This document shows, piece by piece, positions 27,607 to 48,317 of a stretch of DNA of 48,317 bases (position 1 is its first letter; each line of letters begins with the position of its first letter). The stretch is from an uncultured Bacilli bacterium. GTDB lineage: Bacteria; Bacillota_I; Bacilli_A; RF39; UBA660. Position numbers and translations under genes: made by a program. Where the stretch lies: assembly GCA_947632545.1 (NCBI GenBank), contig CANRPP010000007.1, positions 1-48,317 of the forward strand, written 5' to 3'. The notes beneath the pieces are model-generated. The model saw only the letters and a program-made list of their open reading frames with translations, was not told where the DNA came from and did no database searches.

Positions 27607-28119
27607 ATGAAAAAAAGTAAACCCCCTGTATTAGTTATTTTATGTATGTTTTTATTACTATTATTAATAGTAGTACCACCCATTTTTAGAAAATATATTC
27701 CAAAAGAAAATCAACAAATTAATAATAAAGTTAATACTATACAAATTTTAAGTTGTAATAAAACATTTTCTGATAATATACATAAAGGAAGTAGTACAAG
27801 TAAATATATTAATGATGAAATTATTACTAATACTATTAATTTTACTATAATAAATAATCCAACTACCAATAACACTCCATATCAAAATAATAATCAAAGT
27901 AGTAGTGATACAACTTATGAACAGGAGTATCAAAAATTAACAACTTTAAAAGATATAAATATAAAAGTTAATGATAATGTAACAAATATGGTAATTGATA
28001 AAAAAATATATAATAAAAATAAAAATAATGAAAATATAGATAATTATTATAATCCAATAGAAATACAAAAAGAAAATTACGAATTATTAGGTTATAAGTG
28101 CCAAATAATAGAAGGCTAA
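27607..28119 (+). CDS. Signal-anchored hypothetical protein
   Basis: N-terminal TM PPVLVILCMFLLLLLIVVPPIF; SD AGGAG. Confidence 0.6.
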   Translation: MKKSKPPVLVILCMFLLLLLIVVPPIFRKYIPKENQQINNKVNTIQILSCNKTFSDNIHKGSSTSKYINDEIITNTINFTIINNPTTNNTPYQNNNQSSSDTTYEQEYQKLTTLKDINIKVNDNVTNMVIDKKIYNKNKNNENIDNYYNPIEIQKENYELLGYKCQIIEG

Positions 28120-28886
28120 TTCTTTAGTCTTTTTATTATGTCTTTTCCTATAAAAAATATTAAGGATAAAGTTATTGTATATTCAAATAAATATATAAAT
28201 GAAAATAGTTTATCTATATGATTAATAAAATTAAAGAAGTTAAGAATTTTTAATATTGATATACCTGGGAACTTATAAGTTAAAATAAGTTTAGTACCTA
28301 AACATCCTATTAATAAAACATTATCTATAAAAGCTGAAATAGAACCTATTATATATCCAAATATAATGTTATTATGTCTAATATAATATAAAATAAATAT
28401 AATTAAAGCAGGAATAATATTAATAGATAATTTACTTATATTAATATAGGTATTATAGTTTTTAATATCTATTAATGAAATAAGACCTATATATATAATA
28501 ATAGAAGTAATTACAAATATAATCATAAATATTTCACTAATAGATCCAATAGTTTTAATATCATTCTTACCTAAAATATATGTAAGTAATAATAATGATA
28601 ATAGTACTACAAAATAATTATTATACTTAAAATAATTCATATTTATAAATAAAATAGTATTATTTAAAATTATTATAAATATAAAAAATATTATTAATAA
28701 ATATATTATCTTTAAAATCTTACTACTTAATAAATCTATATTTATCTTTTTTATTATAATTATAGAAATTAATATAGATATAAACATAATAATATAACTA
28801 TAAATATTAGTATAGTTATATAGACTAAAGAAAGTTCTAGTTAAAAAGAATATTAATGCTACCATAGAAATATCTCTTTTAATCAT
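28116..28886 (-). CDS. GerAB-like spore germination membrane protein, shortened
   Basis: Follows GerA- and GerC-like genes. GSISEIFMIIFVITSIIIYIGLISLIDIKNY and FPGISILKILNFFNFINHIDKLF resemble GerAB motifs. Confidence 0.6.
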   Translation of the reverse strand: MIKRDISMVALIFFLTRTFFSLYNYTNIYSYIIMFISILISIIIIKKINIDLLSSKILKIIYLLIIFFIFIIILNNTILFINMNYFKYNNYFVVLLSLLLLTYILGKNDIKTIGSISEIFMIIFVITSIIIYIGLISLIDIKNYNTYINISKLSINIIPALIIFILYYIRHNNIIFGYIIGSISAFIDNVLLIGCLGTKLILTYKFPGISILKILNFFNFINHIDKLFSFIYLFEYTITLSLIFFIGKDIIKRLKN

Positions 28887-29445
28887 TTATATCACCTAGA
28901 TTCTTATACTTTATAAATACTAAATTATTACTTTTCATACCAATAACAGGTATCATAGTTTTTCTATTTTCATATTTATTTATTTTAACTTTTTTATAAG
29001 TTATTTTTTTATCTACTAAATTATTAATATATTTATAATTATTACCATATTTTATAATATTTTTTACTTTATCATCTGTAATATAAATATTAAAGTTATC
29101 TCTTTCATTATCAAAAACATTATTAAGATTAAGTATAAGTTTATTACTATCAGTATTTATAATTACATTTTCTAAATGCTCTAAATATATTTTTTTAGTT
29201 ATTTTATCATCTAATTTTTTCATACATTCTTCTATACTATTACCAGAAGAAGAATAATATTTATATTTATTTTTTATACTATCATCTTCTCTTATAGGTA
29301 TTATTTCTTGATAAATTAAATTATAATTATCTTTATTTTTAGTTATACCAATATTAGTAATAATAGAAATACTATTTAATTCTTGATAATTATTAGTACC
29401 AAATACTAAACATAAAAATATTATTATATATATTATTTTTTTCAT
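28879..29445 (-). CDS. Ger(x)C-like spore germination protein, shortened and without an evident lipobox
   Basis: YQELNSISIITNIGITK..., YSSSGNSIEECMKKLDDKITKKIYLEHLENVIIN resemble GerAC domain 1. 188 aa. Confidence 0.65.
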   Translation of the reverse strand: MKKIIYIIIFLCLVFGTNNYQELNSISIITNIGITKNKDNYNLIYQEIIPIREDDSIKNKYKYYSSSGNSIEECMKKLDDKITKKIYLEHLENVIINTDSNKLILNLNNVFDNERDNFNIYITDDKVKNIIKYGNNYKYINNLVDKKITYKKVKINKYENRKTMIPVIGMKSNNLVFIKYKNLGDIND

Positions 29446-30851
29446 TTATATCTACCTCGATATTTATTTTTTGTTAAAATAGGATTTCTATATTTATTAG
29501 TAGTATTTGCTTCTTTATATATTGAGTCCTTTATTTCACTTTTTATAAAAGGAGAAAAAGGTGCGAGATAGGGTTTATTTAGAGAGGTTAAAGTAATTAA
29601 TTTATAAAGAAGATATACTGCTCCTAAATATATTCCATATAAACCTAAAATACAAGAAAGTATTAGAAATATAATACGATACATTCTAATAGCATTAACT
29701 AATTCAATTGATGTAAATACAAAACCAGCAATTGATGATAAAGCAATAATAATTATCATAATAGGGGACATTATTCCAGCTGATACTGCTGCATCACCTA
29801 AAATTAAACCACCAAGAATTGATATTGCACTACCAGTAGTTGATGACATTCTAAGATCACTTTCTCTAAGTATTTCAAATGATATAATCATAAATAACGC
29901 TTCAACTACAGCAGGAAAAGGAACAAATGACCGTTGAGCTTTTAATAAAAGAAGTAGAGAAAGTGGTATTGCATCTTGATTATAAGTAGTAACTGCAATA
30001 TATGCAGCAGGTAAGAATATAGCAATAAAAAATGCAAATAAACGTATTATTCTAACAAATGTTGTATTAATAGATTTTTGATAATAATCATCTACAGTAT
30101 GAAAAAAATCTATAAAAAAATTAGGTAATATAAGTGCATATGAAGACATATCAATTAGTATCGCAACTTTTCCTTCAAGTAGAGCCATAGATACTTTATC
30201 AGGTCTTTCCGTAGACATAATAGTAGGAAAAAAACTATCATTATTATCTTCTAAAATATCTTTTAAATATGATGAATCAATAATCGCATCTATATCTATT
30301 TTAGATAATCTATTTTTTACTTTATCTACTAAATCTTTTTCAACAATATCATTCATATATAAAATACCAACTTTAGTTTCACTACTTTTACCAATATTTA
30401 TTTCATCCCACCATAAATTACTAGATTTAATTCTTCTTCTAATAAGTCCTAAATTAGTATTAAAATTTTCAGAAAAAGAATCTTTAGGGCCACTTATAGA
30501 TAATTCACTCTCTATTGTAGTAATACCACGCTCTAGAATTTTTTTAACTTCAATTGCTAAAATATTATTATTAACTAAACATACTATAAATCCCTTATTC
30601 ATATATGATACTATTTCATCTTCTTTAATATTTTTAATATTATTATCAGGTAATATATTAATAATTTTTTTTAAATCTTTTTTCTTAATATGAGAAAACT
30701 TTTTTAAGATAAAATCATTTATATCACTACCACTACATAATACTTCACTAAACATAAAATAAATTTTTTTATTTTCAATATCAATTTCTTTAAAAATATA
30801 ATCTTTACTATAACCAACTATTTCTTTAGTTTTATTAACAATTTTATCCAT
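29442..30851 (-). CDS. GerA family spore germination protein (A subunit)
   Basis: SGSDINDF, RRRIKSSNLWWDEINIGKSSETKVGILYMNDI, VSMALLEGKVAILIDMSSYALILPNFFIDFFHTVDDYY, RSFVPFPAVVEALFMIISFEILRE. Confidence 0.95.
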   Translation of the reverse strand: MDKIVNKTKEIVGYSKDYIFKEIDIENKKIYFMFSEVLCSGSDINDFILKKFSHIKKKDLKKIINILPDNNIKNIKEDEIVSYMNKGFIVCLVNNNILAIEVKKILERGITTIESELSISGPKDSFSENFNTNLGLIRRRIKSSNLWWDEINIGKSSETKVGILYMNDIVEKDLVDKVKNRLSKIDIDAIIDSSYLKDILEDNNDSFFPTIMSTERPDKVSMALLEGKVAILIDMSSYALILPNFFIDFFHTVDDYYQKSINTTFVRIIRLFAFFIAIFLPAAYIAVTTYNQDAIPLSLLLLLKAQRSFVPFPAVVEALFMIISFEILRESDLRMSSTTGSAISILGGLILGDAAVSAGIMSPIMIIIIALSSIAGFVFTSIELVNAIRMYRIIFLILSCILGLYGIYLGAVYLLYKLITLTSLNKPYLAPFSPFIKSEIKDSIYKEANTTNKYRNPILTKNKYRGRYK

Positions 30852-45849: not shown

Positions 45850-48192
45850 ATGAAGACGTTAACTAAAGAAGAAATAATAAATATAAATGATTATTGGAAT
45901 GCTGCTAATTATTTATCTGTAGGACAATTATATTTACTTGATAATCCACTACTTAGAAGAAAACTTAGTATGAATGATATTAAACCTAATATAGTAGGTC
46001 ATTGGGGAACTGCACCAGGACAGAATTTTATATATGTACATTTAAATAGAATAATAAAAAAATATAATTTAAAAATGATTTATGTATCAGGTCCAGGGCA
46101 TGGTGGAGAAGCTATGGTTGCTAATAATTATTTAGATGGAACCTATAGTAAATTTTATGATGATATAACAGAAGATATAGATGGTATGAAAAAACTATTT
46201 AAACAATTTTCCTTTCCAGGCGGGATATCTTCACATGTAGCACCAGAGACTCCAGGTAGTATTAATGAAGGTGGAGAATTAGGTTATAGTTTATCCCATG
46301 CAGCAGGAGCAGTTCTTGATAATCCAGATTTAATCGCTGCTTGTGTAGTAGGTGATGGAGAAGCAGAAACAGGACCACTAGCGACAAGTTGGCATATTAA
46401 TAAATTTTTAAATCCAAAAACTGATGGAGTAGTTTTACCAATATTACATAGAAATGGTTATAAAATCGCAAGCCCTACTGTATTTGGAAGAATGAGTGAA
46501 ATGGATTTAGATTACTTCTTTACAGGATGTGGTTATAAGGTATATCATGTATCAGGTTCAGAACCATATAAAATGCATGAAGCAATGGCTAAAACTTTAG
46601 ATATGGTAGTTAAAGATATTAAAAAAATTAAAAGTGGAGAAGTAAAAAAAGTTATGTATCCAATGATAGTACTAACTACCCCAAAAGGTTGGACAGGGCC
46701 AAAGAATATAGAAAAAAAACAAATTGAGGGAAGTTTTAGATCACACCAAGTTCCAATTGCAGTAGATAATCTACATATTGATAATATTTCATTACTTGAA
46801 AATTGGTTAAAAAGTTACCATCCAGAAAAATTATTCGATGAAAAAGGAAGATTAATTAAAAGATTAAAAGATTTGGCACCTTCTCCTTCTAAATGTATGG
46901 GTGCAAGCATGTATGCTAATGGAGGATTATTACTAAAAGATTTAGAATTACCAAATTGGGAAGATTATGCTATAAAAGTACCAGCACCAGGTGTGATAAT
47001 TAGACAAGATACAATGGAGTTAGGGAATTATATACGTGATGTATTTAAAATGAATAATAAAAATAAAAACTTTAGATTCTTTGGTCCCGATGAAGCATTA
47101 TCTAATAGATTTAATCATGTTTTTGAAGAAGAAAATAGAACTTGGAATTCTAAAGCCTATAGAAGTGATGAATTTTTATCATCAACAGGTAGAGTTATGG
47201 ATTCATTTTTATCTGAACATGTATGTGAAGGGATGTTAGAAGGTTATTTATTAACAGGAAGACATGGTTTTATTCATAGTTATGAAGCATTCGCAAGAAT
47301 TGTTGACTCTATGGTTTCACAACATGCTAAATGGTTAAAAGTATCTAAACAAATTCCATGGCGAAAAAGTATATCTTCTCTTAATTTCTTACTAGTATCA
47401 CATGTTTTCCAACAAGATCATAATGGATATACCCATCAAGATCCAGGCTTTTTAAATCATTTAGTAACTAAAAAAGCAGATATTGTAAGAATGTATTTAC
47501 CACCAGATACTAACTGTTTACTATCATGTTTTGATCACTGTATTAGAACTAGAGATTATATAAATGTAATAGTAGCATCTAAACATCCTAGACCTCAATG
47601 GTTAACAAGAGCGCAAGCTAAAAAACATTGTACTAAAGGAATAGGTATTTGGGAATTTGCCAGTGATGATACTGAAAATCCTGATATAGTAATGGCTTGT
47701 TGTGGGGAAACTCCAACATTAGAGACCCTTGCAGCAGTAGATATTTTAAAAACAGCAGTAAAAGATATAAAAGTTAGAGTAGTAAACGTAGTAGATTTAA
47801 TGAAACTACAGTCAAATACTGAACATCCTCATGGTATGACAGATGAAGAATATGATAAAATATTTACAAAAGATAAACCAATATTATTTAATTTTCATGG
47901 ATACCCATCATTAATACATCAATTAACATACAAAAGAAATAATAGAAATATACATGTACATGGTTATAAAGAAGAAGGAACAATAACAACTGCATTTGAT
48001 ATAAGAGTTCAAAATGAAATAGATAGATTCCATTTAGTAATATCTGCCTTAAAAGAAATGCCAAGATATAAGAAAAACGCTAATGTATTAATAGATTGGT
48101 GTAATGATATGCTAGAAAAACATAATAAATATATAAAAGAATTTGGTGAAGATATGCCATATATAAAAGATTGGGTATGGAATAAGAATTAA
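45850..48192 (+). CDS. xfp: Xylulose-5-phosphate/fructose-6-phosphate phosphoketolase
   Basis: GHWGTAPGQNFIYVHLNR, GPGHGGEAMVANNYLDGTY, GGISSHVAPETPGSINEGGELGYSLSHAAGAVLDNPDLI, GDGEAETGPLATSWH. Confidence 0.97.
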   Translation: MKTLTKEEIININDYWNAANYLSVGQLYLLDNPLLRRKLSMNDIKPNIVGHWGTAPGQNFIYVHLNRIIKKYNLKMIYVSGPGHGGEAMVANNYLDGTYSKFYDDITEDIDGMKKLFKQFSFPGGISSHVAPETPGSINEGGELGYSLSHAAGAVLDNPDLIAACVVGDGEAETGPLATSWHINKFLNPKTDGVVLPILHRNGYKIASPTVFGRMSEMDLDYFFTGCGYKVYHVSGSEPYKMHEAMAKTLDMVVKDIKKIKSGEVKKVMYPMIVLTTPKGWTGPKNIEKKQIEGSFRSHQVPIAVDNLHIDNISLLENWLKSYHPEKLFDEKGRLIKRLKDLAPSPSKCMGASMYANGGLLLKDLELPNWEDYAIKVPAPGVIIRQDTMELGNYIRDVFKMNNKNKNFRFFGPDEALSNRFNHVFEEENRTWNSKAYRSDEFLSSTGRVMDSFLSEHVCEGMLEGYLLTGRHGFIHSYEAFARIVDSMVSQHAKWLKVSKQIPWRKSISSLNFLLVSHVFQQDHNGYTHQDPGFLNHLVTKKADIVRMYLPPDTNCLLSCFDHCIRTRDYINVIVASKHPRPQWLTRAQAKKHCTKGIGIWEFASDDTENPDIVMACCGETPTLETLAAVDILKTAVKDIKVRVVNVVDLMKLQSNTEHPHGMTDEEYDKIFTKDKPILFNFHGYPSLIHQLTYKRNNRNIHVHGYKEEGTITTAFDIRVQNEIDRFHLVISALKEMPRYKKNANVLIDWCNDMLEKHNKYIKEFGEDMPYIKDWVWNKN

Positions 48193-48226
48193 TATAATTA
48201 AAACTTATATATAAATTACATTGATG

Positions 48227-48251
48227 AGAAGCTATAATGCTTCTTTTTTTT
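48227..48251 (+). terminator. Terminator downstream of xfp
   Basis: GAAGC TATAAT GCTTC followed by T8. Confidence 0.75.
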
Positions 48252-48264
48252 GAGAAAAATTTTA

Positions 48265-48294
48265 TTGACAAATTGGCTCGGGGGGGGGTAGAAT
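48265..48294 (+). promoter_or_regulatory. Putative promoter with a G9 homopolymer in the spacer
   Basis: TTGACA (48265-48270), 18 nt spacer ending in G9 (48280-48288), TAGAAT (48289-48294). Downstream gene is outside the window. Confidence 0.65.
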
Positions 48295-48317
48295 TGTATT
48301 ATAAGATAAAAAAAATA

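Follow-up and report, generated by a model that had tools for sequence, protein, structure and literature searches.

Promoters in which a poly-G tract is situated between the −35 and −10 hexamers are described for the Treponema pallidum gene tp0126, an OmpW homolog, and for porA of Neisseria meningitidis (PMC7864442). In both cases the device is experimentally established. tp0126 is transcribed best when the two hexamers are 17 nt apart, and porA follows the same spacing rule (PMC7864442). T. pallidum carries additional variable poly-G tracts at the paralogous surface protein genes tprE/G/J and tprL; tprE/G/J are transcribed when the tract has at most 8 Gs, and the tprL tract varies from 7 to 11 in vivo with a majority of 9 (PMC7864442).

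The promoters reported here are similar to tp0126 in having a poly-G of variable length in the spacer of a surface protein gene, to porA in having the poly-G in the spacer, where transcription of the surface porin depends on spacing, and to tprE/G/J and tprL in the combination of variable poly-G with paralogous surface proteins (PMC7864442). However, tp0126 belongs to a spirochaete pathogen, whereas in this case there are 23 promoters in one genome of low-GC Bacilli, associated with two paralogous surface families. porA is a single gene of a Gram-negative organism and not a family-wide gene-cassette design. The tprL tract spans part of the −10 and adjoins the start site, and is thus not a spacing switch. 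Mycoplasma hyorhinis, a reduced-genome relative of the Bacilli, has homopolymer promoters for the vlp set of paralogous surface lipoprotein genes. The vlp system differs in that the tracts are poly-A instead of poly-G and are found in one gene cluster.

The mechanism is already known from porA and tp0126; what seems to be new is its scale in uncultured Bacilli. Within the limits of the library searched, no literature linking RF39 with phase variation was found, and therefore the occurrence at this scale appears new for the lineage. Further literature searches yielded known systems and nothing else.

The poly-G promoter at the contig end

The window, i.e. the whole stretch of 48,317 nt that was analysed, is the entire contig C7 of genome G000 (1.05 Mb in 42 contigs) and ends at position 48317. 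The features at its right edge are as follows.

45850..48192, + strand: xfp (phosphoketolase), the upstream gene, outside the switch; stop at 48192
48226..48251, + strand: intrinsic terminator of xfp, stem GAGAAGC/GCTTCTT and then a T-run; hairpin 48226-48245 by the promoter/terminator scan
48265..48270, + strand: −35 hexamer TTGACA, read directly; every class A sibling in the genome also has TTGACA
48271..48279, + strand: fixed 9-nt sequence AATTGGCTC forming the left part of the spacer; C14:10080 has the identical 9 nt, the other class A siblings have AAACGCTCT or similar sequences
48280..48288, + strand: G9 homopolymer, the final 9 nt of the 18-nt spacer (48271-48288); proposed slippage site
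48289..48294, + strand: −10 hexamer TAGAAT; TAGAAT, TATATT and TATGAT among the siblings
48295..48317, + strand: beginning of a conserved 5′ leader (TGTATTATAAGATAAAAAAAATA), cut by the contig end

A sequence-only reading of this DNA had described TTGACA, an 18-nt spacer ending in G9 and TAGAAT, had placed the tract behind the xfp terminator, and had seen no comparable G run in the rest of the window. The promoter description is exact, with coordinates 48265-48294, and the terminator hairpin is found after the xfp stop. After the G9 tract, the second-longest G/C run of the window has a length of 5. The RNA fold of the terminator region gives z = −3.8. The contig ends 23 nt after the −10 TAGAAT and 29 nt after the end of the G9 tract.

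The TTGACA/TAGAAT site scores 11/12 in the promoter scan, the top score of the region. The scan of the window finds 3 promoter-like matches where 2.5 are expected, and TTGACA-N14-20-TANNNT is found 7 times where 7.8 are expected. Since hexamer pairs in the window are no commoner than in shuffled sequence, the hexamers prove nothing alone and the weight is on the G tract. The exact string TTGACA-N9-G9-TAGAAT is present 3 times in the genome, with 0 in the reversed control. At the window site and at its siblings a homopolymer is found between a recognisable −35 and −10. The window tract lies wholly between intact hexamers, overlaps neither −35 nor −10 and is not downstream of the −10; thus the opc/tprL-type feature is absent.

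The window shows two other features. Three minus-strand genes at 28116-30851 appear, by eye, to form a GerA/B/C-type spore-germinant receptor operon, which is notable in a 1-Mb genome. An open reading frame at 68-733 has an internal near-perfect duplication in which EYMSAEEDNRKIENSIRDEYIGKGIE is found twice.

Poly-G promoters in the genome

The sequence-only reading had suggested a search for similar poly-G promoters elsewhere in the genome, and 22 siblings of the window site are found. A search for G7 in the 1.05-Mb genome gives G/C runs of 7 or more at 23 places, all of them 8–11 G, and all 23 sit in the −35/−10 spacer of a promoter. The 134 kb of DNA around the tracts has a GC content of 24% and contains 15 G/C runs of length 5, none of length 6 or 7, and 23 of length 8–11. 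The tract length (8 or more G) is long enough for slippage and far above background. The promoters display two architectures.

Class A: TTGACA-N9-Gn-TAGAAT/TATATT/TATGAT; the tract abuts the −10; n = 9 or 10; spacing 18 or 19
Class B: TTGAC(T/C)-(0-1 nt)-Gn-TAGTTATYG-TATAAT; the tract abuts the −35; n = 9-11; spacing 18-21

At four tracts a contig end intervenes (C7, which is the window copy, the end of C14, C24, and the start of C42). The other 19 show a start codon 37–40 nt downstream (70 nt in one), and the class A siblings display a ribosome-binding site and an ATG 37–40 nt past the tract. Every tract with a complete gene (19 of 19) precedes an open reading frame with a signal peptide or an N-terminal membrane segment; these consist of 9 class A proteins, 9 class B proteins and one other anchored protein. 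No assembled gene has the tract inside its coding sequence, and thus the feature of translational (in-frame) phase variation is absent. Neither the promoter nor any class A relative is present in the viral contigs searched.

One class A and one class B promoter (L044:1-200 and L047:1-200, reverse strand) have approximately 110 nt of sequence in common on their upstream side. This shared stretch holds an inverted repeat, AACGTCACTATAGATAAAAAACGTGACGTT, and is possibly a dispersed element adjoining the cassettes.

Spacer length and number of Gs

In the DNA fetched from this genome, which is all that the count covers, ordinary TTGACA promoters peak at a spacing of 17 nt, with 8 cases versus 0–3 at each other spacing. 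The poly-G promoters of the genome have spacings of 18–21 nt and none is exactly 17 nt. For the window copy, G8 corresponds to 17 nt, G9 to 18 nt and G10 to 19 nt; 17 nt is reached at G8 in class A and at G7 in most of class B. Because ordinary promoters peak at 17 nt and the poly-G promoters are at 18–21 nt, the assembled majority state is predicted to be weak or OFF. The poly-G promoters are predicted to turn ON by loss of 1–4 Gs. The lack of a 17-nt tract in the genome means either a weak or OFF majority state for nearly all of these promoters, or tolerance of 18–19 nt spacings by the organism.

The number of Gs is unequal among copies that have identical flanks. In the genome itself, C10:33669 and C37 have G9 and C14:29882 has G10. 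G099 displays three neighbouring copies with identical flanks and tracts of G9, G10 and G11. Identical-flank copies with G10 and G11 are found in G112 and G064, and several such cases in G134 and G097. These copy-to-copy differences appear to be, in part, what slippage leaves behind; homopolymer consensus in assemblies can be off by one, and some of the difference may be noise of this kind.

Proteins encoded downstream of the tracts

The class A proteins comprise 9 complete sequences, 2 truncated at the 5′ end where C27 and C33 end, and 1 without a tract, situated directly behind another gene. The common N-terminal sequence, MKKIVKKNYKILIGIVIGIIISTT...AIDELYEKA, shows a mean identity of 73% and the bodies 28%. 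The class A proteins could not be assigned with confidence to any family by searches of Pfam and NCBIfam. Class B proteins resemble one another in the signal peptide and in the C-terminus, which is of the sortase type (NPNTSDINLYLLLSLIAVSGCGIAYTVKRRFN, 78%); the bodies show 22% identity. The sortase-type C-termini carry NPNTSD, or VPNTG in one case. One class B member tested is a right-handed beta-helix. The constant ends and variable bodies suggest a resemblance to surface antigens or adhesins.

The genome has 7 sortase genes. Sortase genes adjoin class B surface genes at G000 C10:17324, C10:40538 and C13:1454. The orders RFN20 and ML615J-28 are without srtA/B (PMC10868615). With its size, low GC and sortase genes, the genome would thus be better placed in order RF39 than in either of these.

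The gene that belongs to the window promoter is situated beyond the contig end. The window promoter and the class A locus C14:10080 share the 9-nt left flank as well as the preceding hairpin, and the signal peptide subtype of that locus (IVYSAEN) recurs in the orphan genes of C27 and C33. These shared features point to one of the two orphans as the gene of the window promoter, which would most likely be a class A membrane-anchored paralog whose 5′-truncated copy is found on C27 or C33. Contig C7 probably ends at this point because the leader and signal peptide sequence is repeated.

Occurrence in the genus, the family and other taxa

G017, of the same genus, shows approximately 73 class A matches, many of them in tandem. 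Five G017 loci that were read (L230, L237, L242, L247, L252) all display a G9 promoter with TTGCAA as the −35 and TATAAT directly after the G9; the G017 tracts were missed by the TTGAC search because of this −35. The poly-G tract is also found in G200, G197 and G201 of the genus. Directly after xfp, the poly-G promoter is found in 0 of 8 other species of the genus, where two contigs end 100–216 nt past xfp. Thus the cassette behind xfp seems to be a peculiarity of this species. At L232 (G196), approximately 50–80 nt before position 974, TTGACT and the −10 of a class A homolog are separated by a TA dinucleotide repeat. This repeat is a possible alternative slippery spacer.

The pattern TTGAC-N1-12-G8 is present in 66 of 196 genomes of the same family versus 7 genomes with the pattern reversed. 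In the family, GGGGGGGGTANNAT gives 385 matches in 47 genomes versus 9 matches in 5 genomes for the reversed control. Tracts with their flanks were taken from 44 family genomes among the matches listed, and the −10 was picked by sequence score alone at no more than 13 nt after the tract. Among the matches listed, 88 genome-by-architecture classes from 36 genomes show a left flank of 0–12 nt and a right flank of 0–11 nt. Over these 88 classes and 36 genomes, the left and right flanks are correlated with r = −0.73 (permutation p 5e-5). The sum of the flanks (the non-G remainder) is mostly 7–11 nt, with a mode of 10, in the 88 classes, and in 20,000 trials with shuffled right flanks the variance of the sum was never as small as observed. 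Family spacers are mostly 15–21 nt, a range that straddles the 17-nt optimum. As the flanks are anticorrelated and their sum is near-constant, the total spacing is kept while the position of the tract drifts.

Across the class, a narrow pattern is found in 13 of 396 genomes, with 0 for the reversed control. Across GTDB, the pattern is present in at least 119 stretches, including records of Treponema, Clostridia, Lachnospiraceae and Saccharibacteria. Where downstream open reading frames are recognised among the GTDB matches listed, 50 of 64 have a signal-peptide-like or membrane N-terminus by a simple hydrophobicity rule, not SignalP, versus 6 of 30 open reading frames of the window taken as a control.

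Among the matches listed, L079-L158 display the same architecture before lipoprotein or secreted protein genes in uncultured Treponema, Spirochaetaceae, Clostridia, Lachnospiraceae and Lentisphaerae. Loci from other genera and records (L052, L059, L073, L078, L094) show the poly-G promoter before type IV prepilin-like genes (FTLIELLAVIVIL) and elsewhere before proteins with a signal ending in SYAxF, which look TasA-like by eye.

Proposed mechanism and alternative explanations

In the proposed mechanism, the promoter is of the sigma-70 type and the slippery G tract would set the −35/−10 spacing. On replication, the tract would gain or lose Gs and the spacer would shift around the 17-nt optimum, and this shift would raise or lower transcription of the next gene. 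Single-base slippage would probably switch the coat proteins on and off. With 23 such units of two architectures acting on two paralogous families of surface proteins, surface composition would become a mosaic that differs from cell to cell. The window site is very probably a slippery-G spacing-switch promoter and one unit of the 23-promoter surface-protein set; slippage within the population and the effect on transcription are what we infer from the sequence comparisons. The original interpretation, that of a candidate promoter made phase-variable by its homopolymer and serving a surface or secreted product, is supported at that level by the siblings, the conservation of spacer length and the copies that differ in the number of Gs.

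The poly-G might instead be a binding or structural element, e.g. a regulator site or a G-quadruplex, and not a spacer-length switch. There are precedents in the opc poly-C and in tprL of T. pallidum, which has its tract at the −10; for both, a mode of action other than spacing is assumed (PMC7864442). However, a bound factor leaves unexplained a tract that drifts from abutting the −35 to abutting the −10 with total spacing kept. In addition, an intramolecular quadruplex is impossible from a single G8-G10 run. An element of this kind is considered very unlikely.

The siblings are evident duplicated cassettes with tens of nt of flank in common. The repeats could thus be copies of one ancestral cassette having a constitutive promoter and a conserved G tract that does not slip, the number of Gs being without a regulatory role. 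This is very unlikely indeed. The two architectures of the genome, like the many of the family, keep G8-G11 in the spacer, and the number of Gs differs where flanks are identical. Furthermore, a long G run in DNA of 24% GC is expected to decay without selection.

The promoter scan also shows an overlapping pair with 9/12 matches, consisting of TTGGCT (48273), 18 nt, and TATTAT (48297-48302), with the G tract in mid-spacer. It is extremely unlikely that this pair represents the true promoter. Most class A siblings lack TTGGCT at the corresponding position, whereas TTGACA is the same in every one of them. At C8, TATTAT has been lost but the −10 TATGAT directly after the tract is kept. A TTGGCT/TATTAT promoter would be the same switch anyway.

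An artefact of sequencing or assembly, in the form of two-colour poly-G where a read or contig ends, was a worry raised in the sequence-only reading and is suggested by the position of the window tract 29 nt before the contig end. It is scarcely credible, as most tracts are well inside contigs with normal flanks and are invariably enclosed by the same promoter hexamers, and dozens of assemblies made independently show the pattern while reversed controls are near-empty.

Significance

With the spacing switch as the preferred reading of the window site, we lean slightly toward a broader view of this uncultured, reduced-genome, gut-type Bacilli lineage, in which surface variation would depend mainly on slippery poly-G spacer promoters. 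Paralogous coat-protein cassettes, numbering in the tens (23 tracts in this genome and approximately 73 class A genes in a sister species), would be mostly OFF at 18–21 nt and turned ON by losing 1–4 Gs, and the tract would have arisen or moved repeatedly within the spacer.

Genomes of this kind break at these repeats and, as a result, assemblies frequently miss or divide their surface genes. Phase variation by homopolymer promoters is known mainly from pathogens, e.g. Neisseria and Treponema. If the mechanism proposed here is true, it would be a major and widespread means of surface diversification in uncultured gut-type Bacilli, with relevance to adhesion, host immunity and phage receptors.
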